Of a stretch of DNA of 64,000 bases, positions 27,001 to 31,930 are shown one piece after another. Numbering within the stretch: the first letter of the stretch is position 1; each line of letters opens with the position of its first letter. The position numbers and the translations under genes are program-made. The stretch is from an uncultured Thermoleophilia bacterium (GTDB lineage Bacteria > Actinomycetota > Thermoleophilia > Miltoncostaeales > Miltoncostaeaceae), in the NCBI GenBank assembly GCA_938017905.1, contig CALIKX010000001.1, forward strand, positions 1 through 64,000, read 5' to 3'. The notes under the pieces were generated by a model. It was not told the origin of the DNA, did no database searches, and saw only the letters and a program-made list of their open reading frames with translations.

Positions 27001-27182
27001 GGGCGCGGCACCGCACGGCAGACCGACCGAAGATCACGGGGGCGGCCATCCGGTCGCCTTGAACCAGGGGGACACCCCGACCCGTGTGAGGACGGAGCCA
27101 CTGGGGGTACGCCCGGCCGCGCGCCGTGCGTCATCTCCTCCCGGCCCGCCCTCGCGCGGCTGGCAGAGGAGGAGGTGAGGAA
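27001..27182 (+). promoter_or_regulatory. rplJ-rplL leader region
   Basis: This is a 182-nt non-coding stretch between rplA and rplJ, where many bacteria carry the L10-binding autoregulatory leader. It contains a GGGGGACACCCC segment and ends with an 11-bp helix that can mask the rplJ ribosome binding site. No promoter with a good -10 is apparent, so the leader may be reached from rplK. Assignment as an L10 leader is by position. Confidence 0.5.
27131..27178 (+). promoter_or_regulatory. Helix sequestering the rplJ Shine-Dalgarno
   Basis: TCATCTCCTCC (27131-27141) pairs with GGAGGAGGTGA (27168-27178) over 11 bp with one G-U. The second arm is the rplJ ribosome binding site. The 26-nt loop is GC-rich and can fold further. 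The structure would hold translation off until an L10-L12 or ribosome event opens it. Confidence 0.55.
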
Positions 27183-27890
27183 CTGAACAGGGAGCAGAAG
27201 GCAGAGGCCATCGCGGCGATCGCGGAGCGCCTCTCCACCACCGACACCGTCATCGCGACGGCGTTCCATGGCCTGAGCGTCCGCGAGGTCGAGGACCTCC
27301 GGGGTGCGCTCCGCGAGGCCGACGCCCATTTCCAGGTCGTCAAGAACACCCTGGCGCGTCGTGCATGCGATGAGACCGGTCGCGAGGCCCTGCTCGAGTA
27401 CCTCGAGGGGCAGACCGCCCTGGTCTGGGCGAATGGCGACCCGGCCATGATCGCGAAGGCGCTGAACAGCTTCGCGAAGTCCACGGAGGACCGGCTGAGC
27501 ATGAAGGGCGGCATCCTCGATGGCGCCCCCATCTCGGCCGGCGAGCTCAAGCAGCTCGCCGCCCTCCCGCCCCGCGACGAGCTGCTCGCCCGCCTGGTCG
27601 GCGGCGTGGCCAGCCCGCTGCAGGGCACCGCCAACGCGCTGAACAGCCTCATCTCCGGCATGGCCCGTGCCCTGGGTGCGTACCACGCCCAGCGCGCGGC
27701 CGAGCCCGGCGCAGCCACGGAGGCCCCGGCCGCCGAGCCGGCACCGGAGGCCGAGGCCACCACCGATGACACCGCCGAGGCGGCGCCCGAGGCGCCCGCT
27801 GAGGACACCCCGGAGGCCGTGCAGGAGCCGGCAGCCGACGACAACGCGGACGCCGAGCCGGCTGCCGACGACACCACGGAAGGAGACTGA
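27183..27890 (+). CDS. rplJ: 50S ribosomal protein L10
   Basis: This 235-residue protein anchors L7/L12 dimers to the ribosome stalk. The conserved start [16 protein letters not shown] places the first codon at a CTG (27183), 7 nt after GGAGG. No ATG, GTG or TTG is in frame before it except a GTG at 27126 that would encode the leader helix. The core has [18 protein letters not shown] and [10 protein letters not shown]. The C-terminal ~65 residues are an Ala/Glu/Asp/Pro-rich acidic tail beyond the normal length. rplL follows after 2 nt. Confidence 0.9.
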
Positions 27891-27892
27891 CG

Positions 27893-28279
27893 ATGGCGAT
27901 GACCACCGAGGAGTGGATCGAGGAGCTCAAGGGCATCTCCGTGCTCGAACTGAGCGAGCGCATCTCGGCGCTGGAGGAGGCCTTCGGCGTGAGCGCGGCG
28001 GCCGCCCCGGTCGCGGTTGCTGCGGCCCCGGCCGCAGGCGGGGGCGATGGCGGCGGCGACGCCGAGCAGGACTCGTTCACCGTCACGCTCGACGCGGCCG
28101 GCGACAAGAAGATCCAGGTGATCAAGGTCGTCCGCGCCGTCACCGGCCTTGGCCTCAAGGAGGCCAAGGACCTCGTCGATGGCGCCCCCGGCACCATCAA
28201 GGAGGGCGTGGCCAAGGAGGAGGCCGAGCAGATCAAGTCGCAGGTCGAGGAGGCCGGCGGGTCCGTCTCGCTCTCGTAG
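27893..28279 (+). CDS. rplL: 50S ribosomal protein L7/L12
   Basis: This 128-residue stalk protein recruits translational GTPases. It has an N-terminal dimerisation domain ([20 protein letters not shown]), an Ala/Gly hinge and the C-terminal domain ([20 protein letters not shown]). The ATG follows GGAAGGAGA by 6 nt. A strong intrinsic terminator lies 26 bp past the stop, so the rplJL transcript is separated from the next genes and from rpoB. Confidence 0.97.
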
Positions 28280-28355: not shown

Positions 28356-29801
28356 ATGCCAGGCCTCCTCGCGCGCATGGCGGGGGCCGCGCTGGTCGCG
28401 GCTGCCTCCTCATCCCCCGCCCTCGGCGTCGTGTCGCAGGGTGTCTTCCGCATGGGCGCGGACGCGTCGTGGGCACGCGGCATCACGGGCGCGGCCACGC
28501 AGGTCGCGGTGCTGGACCAGGGCTTCGGTGGCCTGGCCGAGTCCATCGCCGCCGGCGAGTTGCCGCCGCTTTCATCAATGGAGACCCGCTCGTTCGACCC
28601 GGTCCACGGTCTGGAGGGGCGCGACAACCTCGGCGGGCGCACCCAGCACGGCACGAGGATGGCCGAGATCGTCCACGACGTCGCCCCGGGCGCGCGCCTG
28701 GTGCTGGTGAACTACGACGACATCGGCGGCTTCGTCCGTGCGGTCGAGTGGATCGCGGCCAGCGGCATCCCGGTGGTCAGCCATTCGAACAGCCTCCTCG
28801 GGGGGCCGTTCGACGGCAGCGGCGTGCTTGCCCAGGCCGTCAATGGCGCAGCGGCCCGCGGGGTGCTGTGGGTCAACTCATCAGGCAACTTCGGCGAGCG
28901 GCACTGGCGGGGCGTGCCCGGGCCCGCGGGTACCGAGATCCCCATCAGCCCGCGGCCGGGCGAGACGATGGCGTTCGGGCTGGGCTGGAGCGGCGCCGGC
29001 GCCGAGGCGGTCCTGCTGGTCCAGCGCCTGCGGGGCGACGGGTCGTGGGCCGAGGTGGCCCGCAGCGACCGCACCCGTCGCACGCCACCCGTGGCGGTGG
29101 ACGGAGGCGCGTGGCGCCTGGTGGTGATGCGCACCGCGGGTGCCGAGGTCCCGGTGGACGTGTTCTCGCGCACCGTCGGCTTCGGGGCGGCCGCCACCGC
29201 GGATGGCAGCGTGGCCACCCCCGGTGACGCCCTGGGCTCGCTCTCGGTGGGCGCGGTGAGCTGGCGCGGCACGGCGCCCGAGCGGTACTCGTCGCGCGGC
29301 CCCACCCAGGATGGTCGCTCCAAGCCCGACCTGGTGGGGCCCACGTACGTCACGTCCAATCGGCTCTTCCCGGGTACCGCGGGCACCTCCGCATCCACGG
29401 CGCACGTGGCGGGCGCGGCGGCGCTCATCCGCGACGAGCGGATCGCCACCGGGGCGCGCAGCGACGTGTGGGCCCTGCGCGCGGAGATCCTGCGGCGGGC
29501 GAAGCGGCTGGGCGACCGCGCGGCGACGGGCGCAGGGATGGCGCGCGTGGACGTGGTGCGCCCCCGCGTGCGGCTGGTCGTGCCCTCCGGGCGGCGCCCC
29601 GTGGTGAGGGTGCGGGCCACCGATGCCGGCACCATGGCGGCGGTGGAGCTGCGGCTGAATGGCCGTGTGATGCGCACGCGTCCCGGCCCCGTACTCGCGC
29701 AGCGCATCTGGTTGCGCGACGGGCGCAACCGCATCGAGGTGCGTGCCCGCGACCTCGCCGGCAACGAGGCAGTCGTGCGTCGCACGGTGACCCGCCGATG
29801 A
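28356..29801 (+). CDS. Secreted subtilisin-like serine peptidase (S8), first copy
   Basis: This 481-residue protein has a signal peptide (MAGAALVAAASSSPALG). The S8 triad fits D54 (VAVLDQGFGG), H98 (RTQHGTRMAEI) and S345 (GTSASTAHVAG), with N in VNSSGNFGERHW as the oxyanion residue. The Pro normally found after GTSxA is missing. The C-terminal ~80 residues form an Ig-like beta domain. The following gene overlaps by ATGA and encodes a paralogue, so both are cotranslated. The start is the first ATG giving a signal peptide; no clear promoter is seen. It has no link to the ribosomal genes around it. Confidence 0.85.
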   Translation: MPGLLARMAGAALVAAASSSPALGVVSQGVFRMGADASWARGITGAATQVAVLDQGFGGLAESIAAGELPPLSSMETRSFDPVHGLEGRDNLGGRTQHGTRMAEIVHDVAPGARLVLVNYDDIGGFVRAVEWIAASGIPVVSHSNSLLGGPFDGSGVLAQAVNGAAARGVLWVNSSGNFGERHWRGVPGPAGTEIPISPRPGETMAFGLGWSGAGAEAVLLVQRLRGDGSWAEVARSDRTRRTPPVAVDGGAWRLVVMRTAGAEVPVDVFSRTVGFGAAATADGSVATPGDALGSLSVGAVSWRGTAPERYSSRGPTQDGRSKPDLVGPTYVTSNRLFPGTAGTSASTAHVAGAAALIRDERIATGARSDVWALRAEILRRAKRLGDRAATGAGMARVDVVRPRVRLVVPSGRRPVVRVRATDAGTMAAVELRLNGRVMRTRPGPVLAQRIWLRDGRNRIEVRARDLAGNEAVVRRTVTRR

Positions 29802-31930
29802 TCGTCCGCGTCGCAGGACTGTCCGTTTCCCTGGCGCTGGCCGGCATCGTGCCGGCCCAGGGCGCGGCCGGCACGGGCCCCGTGAGCGTCATCGCCTCGC
29901 GGGGTCACGGCGACGGCGTAGCCGCGGCCCTGCGCGCGGCGGCTCTGCCGGTCGTGCGACGGAGTGGCGCGATGATGCAGGTGAACGCACCGGCGGCGCG
30001 CATTGCCGCCATCCGTCGTCTGCCCGGGGTGGCAGCGGCCTATCCGGCGCCCGGGGGAGTCCCCGCCACGGATCCTGAGGAGGATCCCGGCGCGAAGGTC
30101 ACGCCCGTGGCGGGCCCCGTGATGAGCGAGGGCCTCGAGCGCATCGGCGCCGATGCGCTCCAGTCGCTCGCCCGCGACGGGCGCGGGGTGACCATCGCCG
30201 TGCTCGACCTGGGGTTCGGGCCCATCTCGCGCATCGTGGGGCTGCAGCGCCGGAAGGAGCTTCCGCCTTCGTCGCGGCTCGAGACGGCCAGCTTCGATCC
30301 GGCGTGGGGCTTCGCCGGCCGGAATGCCTACGGCAACCCCACCAACCACGGCGAGCTCGTGGCGCAGACGGTGTACGACTTCGCGCCCGCCGCCCGCTAC
30401 CTGTTCGTCAACTACCACACCGAGCAGGACTTCGAGGCCGCCGTGGACTGGCTCATCGCGCGCCGCCCCGACGTGGTGGTCCACAGCAACAGCTTCCTCG
30501 AGGGGCCGTTCGACGGCACCGGCGCGGCTGCCCAGGCCGTCGATCGCGCCGCGGCCGCCGGAATCGCGTGGGTCAACTCTGCGGGTAACTACGCCGAGCG
30601 CCACTGGGAGGGCACGTGGGCGGACGGCGATGGGGACGAGGTGCTCGACTGGCCGCGCGCGCCGGGCTGGTCGTTCGCCGTCGCTCCCGGGAAGCCGATC
30701 ACGTTCGCCCTCTCGTGGGACCAGCCCGAGGGCGCCGAGGTGACCGACCTGGACCTCGTGCTGGAGAAGCTGACGCCGGGCGGATGGGCCGCGGTGGCCA
30801 CCTCTCGCGACTCCCAGTTGGCGGGCGCTCCCCCGGCGGAGCGCCTCACCGGCATCCCGTCGGGTGATGGCGGCGAGTTCCGGGTGCGCGTGGCGCTGGC
30901 CGGGGGTCCGCCGCCACCGGGCACGCTCACCATGTTCTCGCGTGAGATCCCCATGGACGCCATCGGCGATCCCGGGCCGGGCAGCATTCCCACGCCGGGC
31001 GACGCCGATGGGGCCATCGCCGTGGGCGCCGTCGAGTGGAAGAGCAACGCCATCAAGGCGTACTCATCGCGCGGGCCCACCGACGACGGACGCCTCAAGC
31101 CTGACCTCACGGCGCCCACGAACACGCGGGTGCAGACGCCCACCGGGCCGCGGTCGGTCGGGGGCACGTCGAACGCCGCCCCGAACGCCGCGGGGGCCAT
31201 CGCGCTGCTCATCGCGGCCCGCCGCCGGGCCGGCGCGCCGCTCGAGCTCACGGCCCTCGGCGACCTGCTCGCCACGCAGGCCCTGGACCTCGGGCTGCCG
31301 GGACCCGATGACGTCTTCGGCGCCGGACGCGTGCGCGTGGATGTGGACCCGCCCGAGATCCGCATGACCGCGCGCCCGCGCCGGTCGGAGGCGAGGTTGC
31401 CCGTGCGCGTGGGCGCGGAGATCGGCGACGCCTCGCGCGTGGTGGGCTGGAGCGTGGCGGTCGACGGCCGTACCGTTGCGCGCCGGTGGGGCGAGGTGGG
31501 GCGTTCCGTCGCGCTCGGATCGCGCTGGCTTCCGGACGGCCTGCACGAGGTGGTGGTGACGGCCCGCGACTGGCCCGGGAACGTCTCGACGCGGCGCATG
31601 GACGTGTTCGTCGATTCCCGGCCGCCGCGCCTTGCGTCGCTGCGCCTCACGCGGCCATCGGCGGCACGGACGGGCGCCCGCGCTGCCGCGTCGCGCGCGG
31701 CACGCCTGGCCCTCGTGGCGCGTGACGCCAGCCCGGCACGGCTGGTGATCACCCTGCGCGCCCCGGACGGCCGGGAGATCCGCCGCGTGGTGCGCTTCCG
31801 CGGCACCGTGCGCCGGGACCTCGCGCTCGGGTCACTCCCGGCGGGTCGGTACGAGGCGACGATCGCCGCCTCGGATGCCGCCGGGCATGCGCGCACGCTC
31901 ACGCGGGTACTCCGCCTGCGCGCCCGTTGA
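29798..31930 (+). CDS. Secreted subtilisin-like serine peptidase (S8), second copy
   Basis: This 710-residue protein is a larger paralogue of the preceding gene. A signal peptide (VAGLSVSLALAGIVPAQG) is followed by a ~90-residue region resembling a propeptide (QVNAPAARIAAIRRLPGVAA). The triad fits D137 (IAVLDLGFGP), H184 (TNHGELVAQTV) and S458 (GGTSNAAPNAAG), with N264 as oxyanion residue. Two Ig-like beta domains follow from about residue 505 (VDVDPPEIRMT and VDSRPPRLASL). The core shares EGPFDGTG, SAGNYAERHW and YSSRGPTDDGRLKPDL with the first copy. The ATG overlaps its stop (ATGA). Its target is unknown. Confidence 0.87.
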   Translation: MIVRVAGLSVSLALAGIVPAQGAAGTGPVSVIASRGHGDGVAAALRAAALPVVRRSGAMMQVNAPAARIAAIRRLPGVAAAYPAPGGVPATDPEEDPGAKVTPVAGPVMSEGLERIGADALQSLARDGRGVTIAVLDLGFGPISRIVGLQRRKELPPSSRLETASFDPAWGFAGRNAYGNPTNHGELVAQTVYDFAPAARYLFVNYHTEQDFEAAVDWLIARRPDVVVHSNSFLEGPFDGTGAAAQAVDRAAAAGIAWVNSAGNYAERHWEGTWADGDGDEVLDWPRAPGWSFAVAPGKPITFALSWDQPEGAEVTDLDLVLEKLTPGGWAAVATSRDSQLAGAPPAERLTGIPSGDGGEFRVRVALAGGPPPPGTLTMFSREIPMDAIGDPGPGSIPTPGDADGAIAVGAVEWKSNAIKAYSSRGPTDDGRLKPDLTAPTNTRVQTPTGPRSVGGTSNAAPNAAGAIALLIAARRRAGAPLELTALGDLLATQALDLGLPGPDDVFGAGRVRVDVDPPEIRMTARPRRSEARLPVRVGAEIGDASRVVGWSVAVDGRTVARRWGEVGRSVALGSRWLPDGLHEVVVTARDWPGNVSTRRMDVFVDSRPPRLASLRLTRPSAARTGARAAASRAARLALVARDASPARLVITLRAPDGREIRRVVRFRGTVRRDLALGSLPAGRYEATIAASDAAGHARTLTRVLRLRAR

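Follow-up and report, generated by a model that had tools for sequence, protein, structure and literature searches.

Background

The Bacillus subtilis rplJL leader is a three-structure switch through which the L10(L12)4 complex acts by transcription attenuation (PMC4538822). In E. coli, L10(L12)4 is proposed to repress rplJL at the level of translation, the Shine-Dalgarno (SD) sequence being hidden (summarized in PMC4538822). The rplJ leader described here resembles the B. subtilis leader and the Rfam L10_leader family (RF00557) in having a kink-turn core 5' of rplJ, three mutually exclusive structures and a core 3' strand able to pair with a downstream effector hairpin. It differs from them in four respects: in its genus the effector hairpin lacks a U-run and bears an anti-SD arm, there is an additional hairpin (P4), UGAA replaces the UUAA of other leaders and the element falls below detection by RF00557. 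Compared by description rather than by alignment, it also resembles the E. coli system in its proposed translational repression with a hidden SD, and differs from it in its CUG start codon and local sequestor.

The start codon has parallels of its own. infC starts with AUU, AUC or AUA and is under feedback control by IF3. Like infC, rplJ is a gene of the translation apparatus with a non-canonical start; the genes themselves differ, and in the Miltoncostaeales family studied here infC appears to start with GTG or TTG, for which reason IF3 autoregulation via infC was rejected. In Streptomyces, sigR starts with GTC in 32 of 34 species and with GTT in the other two, has a conserved extended AGGAGGTG SD and is repressed by IF3 (PMC5472188). 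rplJ shares with sigR a conserved non-canonical start, a different non-canonical codon in rare species and the extended AGGAGGTG SD; gene and codon are different, and IF3 dependence, demonstrated for sigR, is drawn for rplJ by analogy only. CUG accounts for 0.024% of annotated bacterial starts and initiates at 0.86% of the AUG level in E. coli (PMC11497404). This rare, weak codon nonetheless appears to be fixed order-wide on an essential ribosomal gene, a natural and conserved case in which to ask why a ribosomal protein should retain a weak start codon and whether IF3 can coordinate the supply of ribosome components beyond infC. Our literature search found no text joining "CUG start codon" with "rplJ".

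The rplJ locus

The window, a stretch of 64,000 nucleotides, belongs to a Miltoncostaeales (Thermoleophilia) metagenome-assembled genome (MAG) of 1.54 Mb (95% complete, 89 contigs). By our reading of its open reading frames, the genes run in the order secE-nusG-rplK-rplA-(182 nt)-rplJ-rplL; the features considered below are collected in Table 1. Among named records, the best matches to the encoded L10 are from "Miltoncostaeales bacterium" MAGs (97% and 88% identity).

Table 1. Features of the rplJ leader and the adjoining genes in the window
Feature	Coordinates	Strand	Basis and remarks
L10-leader-type core	27023-27095	+	Covariation; full-length RF00557 alignment to the same element in G027
Core P1	27023-27028/27090-27095	+	
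Core P2	27035-27040/27081-27086	+	
Core P3	27041-27047/27052-27058	+	
Core P4	27067-27070/27075-27078	+	
Kink-turn strand 1, ACC-GAA-GA	27026-27033	+	Strand 2 is GA-GG at 27088-27091
Antisequestor 5' arm (core 3' strand)	27082-27095	+	Partner 27146-27159
SD-mimic G-rich motif	27104-27107	+	GGGG here, GGAG in most relatives; RNAalifold consensus, pair counts
Anti-SD arm of sequestor	27131-27141	+	11 pairs with SD; 7-11 pairs, identically placed, in 18 of 19 genus members
GC-rich hairpin within sequestor	27142-27163	+	Local folds; place of the outgroup terminator; holds antisequestor 3' arm 27146-27159
Extended SD GGAGGAGGTGA, sequestor 3' arm	27168-27178	+	GGAGGTGA invariant within the family
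rplJ start codon CTG	27183-27185	+	35 of the 36 family genomes have CTG, one has ATA; upstream in-frame stops in eight
rplJ (L10)	27183-27890	+	235 codons and stop; PF00466, 96.9 bits; translation
rplL (L7/L12)	27893-28279	+	ATG start, 2 nt past the rplJ stop

Several features of the surroundings were noted in passing. L10 of the window's genus is about 225-276 residues long, compared with about 175 in several other genera, and has an acidic Ala/Glu/Pro-rich C-terminal tail (27680-27890 in the window) adjoining its L12-binding end. Two tandem ORFs 3' of rplL (28360-31930), judged by motifs alone to be subtilisin-type serine peptidase-like, are unexpected neighbours for a ribosomal operon. Two MAG records titled Bifidobacterium breve (L037, CAMCDF010000052.1; L046, CAMCOB010000022.1) encode a Miltoncostaeales-type L10, with 86% and 77% identity, and are apparently mislabelled.

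A conserved CTG start codon

To place the start in relatives, L10 proteins were aligned and the codon under the initiator Met was identified; 36 genomes of the family from 11 genera, with L10 identity down to 47%, could be read in this way. The window's CTG falls opposite the first Met of L10 from other families. The codon at this position is CTG in 35 of the 36 genomes and ATA in the other (G007; 98% complete, 20 contigs), so that a non-canonical start is conserved across species, as in infC and sigR. The outgroups, 34 genomes drawn from nine other families of the class, use ATG or, in a few cases, GTG. Upstream starts are excluded by eight family genomes, spread over six genera, that carry an in-frame stop 9-24 nt 5' of this codon and no ATG, GTG or TTG in between; sixteen family genomes have no canonical in-frame start anywhere upstream of the rplJ codon. 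Downstream, the nearest canonical start in this family is 8-106 codons inside L10. Gene callers limited to ATG, GTG and TTG would mis-start or extend rplJ across the order. The neighbouring genes keep canonical starts: rplL has ATG wherever it is readable, and rplA has ATG or GTG at every start that could be placed (all but one).

In the family alignment, GGAGGTGA is invariant 5' of the start codon, at a spacing of 4 nt in most genomes and of 5 or 6 nt in three. Loci were examined in five family genomes, and among them rplJ alone is an evident gene start with such an SD and CTG. General use of CTG starts behind strong SDs was rejected, as the other GGAGGTGA-N-CTG matches examined with this narrow pattern fall within open reading frames or ahead of short ORFs. 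A phylum-wide search with a similarly narrow pattern (SD, CTG and the L10 N-terminus) gave matches in the Miltoncostaeales family only. Assembly error as the source of the CTG is ruled out by independent MAGs and by the single-contig genome G030, and a recoded initiator tRNA was rejected because a search for the standard GGGCTCATAACCC anticodon stem-loop found it present. From the family conservation, the upstream stops, the invariant SD and the standard initiator tRNA, we assign the rplJ start to CTG (ATA in G007) with high confidence on comparative grounds, and the trait appears to be order-wide.

We argue that selection keeps this codon non-canonical, since a maximal SD has been retained and since CTG has been replaced by ATA, another non-canonical codon. 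IF3 normally discriminates against codons of the CUG/AUA class. With a CUG start (AUA in one species) placed after an exceptionally long SD, L10 synthesis would for this reason probably depend also on initiation fidelity or the level of IF3. By analogy with the systems above, IF3, unnamed in an earlier note on this DNA, would be the natural reader of the brake that CUG provides.

A different account, which we consider unlikely though deserving of weight, is that the CUG is real but a fixed setting with no sensor: it would lower L10 relative to L12, and the leader alone would regulate. The stalk has one L10 per four or six L12, and rplL and rplJ differ in the expected direction, with ATG in the former wherever readable and CTG in the latter. 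The output from CUG in E. coli, 0.86% of that from AUG, also suits such a setting (PMC11497404). A merely weak start, however, needs no maximal invariant SD, as GTG or TTG or a weaker SD would be enough, and the sole exception to CTG is ATA, neither GTG nor TTG.

A divergent L10-leader-type RNA

Leader alignments were made from 19 genus and 23 family sequences, and in both the segment 27023-27095 forms a strongly conserved block. Its helices P1, P3 and P4, together with the invariant inner P2, have 94.9% of cells paired and include 9 pairs changed on both sides. Covariation of the core is 0.272 as against 0.117 for shuffled alignments (reached in 0 of 500), and slid versions give 0.053-0.141. 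The kink-turn motif ACC-GAA-GA / GA-GG sits between P1 and P2; its A34, G35 and A36 and its G91, A92 and G93 (leader numbering) are invariant in the 23 family sequences, and the same motif is found in the Rfam L10_leader consensus.

An Rfam scan of the window gave no RF00557 match. The best RF00557 score within the family is that of G027 (27.5 bits over the full length, E=0.0064), which does not reach the gathering cut-off of 44, and one outgroup family scores 48 bits. The element lies between rplA and rplJ, as L10 leaders do, and has their kink-turn and conserved, covarying helices; the downstream intrinsic terminator of the Rfam model is absent from the window's genus, where there is no U-run. 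Because RF00557 aligns to the element in G027 and in the outgroup, comparison of these sequences supports well its identification as a divergent L10-leader-type RNA that fails the formal RF00557 score test. An unpaired UAA in L10 leaders is a requirement for L10 binding. At this site the window has UUGAA, and some relatives have UAAA or UUAAUU. Regulation through the rplJ leader, proposed in the earlier note on general grounds, is strongly supported by this core with its kink-turn.

In another family of the class (f7; L108, L109 and L111), a compact L10-leader core seems to adjoin the rplJ SD directly (AAGACC...CCGG-AGGAGG), another possible route to translational control.

Probable sequestration of the Shine-Dalgarno sequence

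The helix first described in the earlier note is present in the window: TCATCTCCTCC pairs with GGAGGAGGTGA over 11 contiguous pairs, 10 of them Watson-Crick and one U-G. When the 91 nt upstream were shuffled 200 times with dinucleotide content preserved, no shuffle paired as strongly with this SD. The minimum free energy (MFE) structure computed for the entire leader (-100.6 kcal/mol) leaves no base of the SD core unpaired; in it, the sequestor arms enclose a second GC-rich hairpin. The anti-SD arm is found throughout the genus, the nineteenth member retaining CCTCC. Beyond the genus the idea of a hidden SD holds less well: anti-SD arms lie at other, non-homologous positions in g3, g4, g9 and g10, no anti-SD helix beyond chance was found in g2, g7 or g8, and by the cost of opening the SD across genera, occlusion is only modestly above that of GC-matched shuffles (Fisher P=0.016).

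The two arms do not covary (0.083 as against 0.073 shuffled, with one two-sided change). The earlier note had named this outcome as counting against the helix, which we regard as an unfair refutation: the SD arm, nearly invariant here, is fixed for ribosome binding and cannot vary. Opening of the helix by upstream translation, also suggested there, finds no support. We consider SD sequestration to be moderately supported by the sequence comparison.

The place occupied by the sequestor may once have been that of a terminator. Several other families have a GC-rich hairpin with a U-run, an intrinsic terminator, just 5' of the rplJ SD, and within the family a terminator-like hairpin with a U-rich tract persists in g9 and g11. 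The window's genus has lost the U-run, and its hairpin is bracketed by the anti-SD arm. Derivation of the sequestor from a terminator is supported but not proven by these alignments; if correct, the family forms a terminator-to-SD-sequestor series and shows directly a way in which attenuators may become translational switches. The terminator-like hairpins of the outgroups, g9 and g11, and the attenuator function of B. subtilis rplJL (PMC4538822), would also suit a leader that is still a transcription attenuator (intrinsic or Rho-dependent) in the window's genus, with SD pairing as a by-product. We judge this improbable, as no U-run follows the hairpin in this genus and the CCTCC arm is kept within an otherwise variable stretch. 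A leader acting on translation through its anti-SD arm is the reading preferred here.

A putative competing helix and proposed control of rplJL

RNAalifold analysis of the genus alignment gave an alternative fold that joins the core's 3' strand (27082-27095) to 27146-27159, within the hairpin adjoining the SD, and the G-rich motif at 27104-27107 to CUCC of the anti-SD arm (27135-27138). This antisequestor fold is mutually exclusive with both the core and the sequestor. Its 17 pairs (including one A-U pair that we added) have 97.2% of cells paired in the genus, compared with 40-59% for slid versions, and two pairs are changed on both sides. For the core 3' strand, the best-pairing segment lies 2-15 nt before the SD in 24 of 26 family sequences, with individual P values from 0.005 to 0.7. 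The antisequestor and the core-plus-sequestor states are about 0-2 kcal apart in several relatives, but the latter is favoured by 12 kcal in the window. The antisequestor is thus supported but not proven, and the layout likely follows the anti-antiterminator/antiterminator/terminator logic of B. subtilis, with a sequestor replacing the terminator.

The kink-turn core is predicted to bind the L10(L12)n complex when this outnumbers 23S rRNA; a folded core would leave the anti-SD arm to pair with the SD, turning off L10 translation. When free of L10, the core 3' strand would pair with the SD-adjoining hairpin, forming the antisequestor and releasing the SD. The sequestor would have taken the place of the intrinsic terminator of related families. 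Both the binding of L10 and the direction of the switch are what we infer from the likeness to known leaders. Two brakes seem to restrain L10 output together, and we consider translational control of rplJL by a leader switch combined with an IF3-discriminated start to be probable; the start codon and the leader are well supported parts of this proposal. Autogenous repression through the leader together with such a start is the most economical account.

A more specific proposal, which we put forward tentatively and hold to be possible rather than probable, is that synthesis of the stalk protein L10 is tied to initiation fidelity in this order: an IF3-discriminated CUG/AUA rplJ start would be gated by an attenuator-derived, L10-binding sequestor, and supply would answer both free L10(L12)n and IF3 status. 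The interpretation in the earlier note, a helix-controlled L10 with the weak codon as a second brake, is partly borne out; it missed the putative L10-binding core, the competing antisequestor helix, the apparent terminator ancestry and the seemingly order-wide CTG.

Other candidate start sites

The earlier note had taken CTG at 27183 as the only start fitting L10. The comparative evidence confirms the codon; its uniqueness does not follow from the window alone, because an in-frame GTG at 27126, which had been overlooked, opens a 254-aa ORF. It is very improbable that L10 starts at this GTG, with a 19-residue extension and CTG as an ordinary Leu codon: the reading frame is open from it, but it has no SD before it and is unconserved, in-frame stops separate upstream starts from CTG in the eight relatives noted above, and sixteen genomes lack a canonical upstream in-frame start altogether. 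The out-of-frame GTG at 27175 reads GTG AGG AAC TGA and does stop after three codons, as the earlier note had stated. Termination at this mini-ORF followed by reinitiation at CUG is equally hard to credit; the mini-ORF is present in the entire genus (with TAG as the stop in G007) and in most genera, but its spacing or stop is lost in g2 (CTGC), in one g7 genome and in both g4 genomes (different spacing), and its GTG lies inside the SD and has no SD of its own. For the same losses it was rejected as a conserved element, and its TGA is a by-product, because CTG precedes a codon that begins with A.

Two further observations concern infC. In another family of the class (f4; L070, L071, L072 and L075), infC has an apparent ATA start behind GGGAGGTG, a further non-canonical infC start. 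In the window's family (L081 and others), the apparent GTG or TTG start of infC has no SD before it and is followed directly by the anti-SD-like CCTCCTAG or CCACCTAG; these genes are possibly leaderless or self-occluding.
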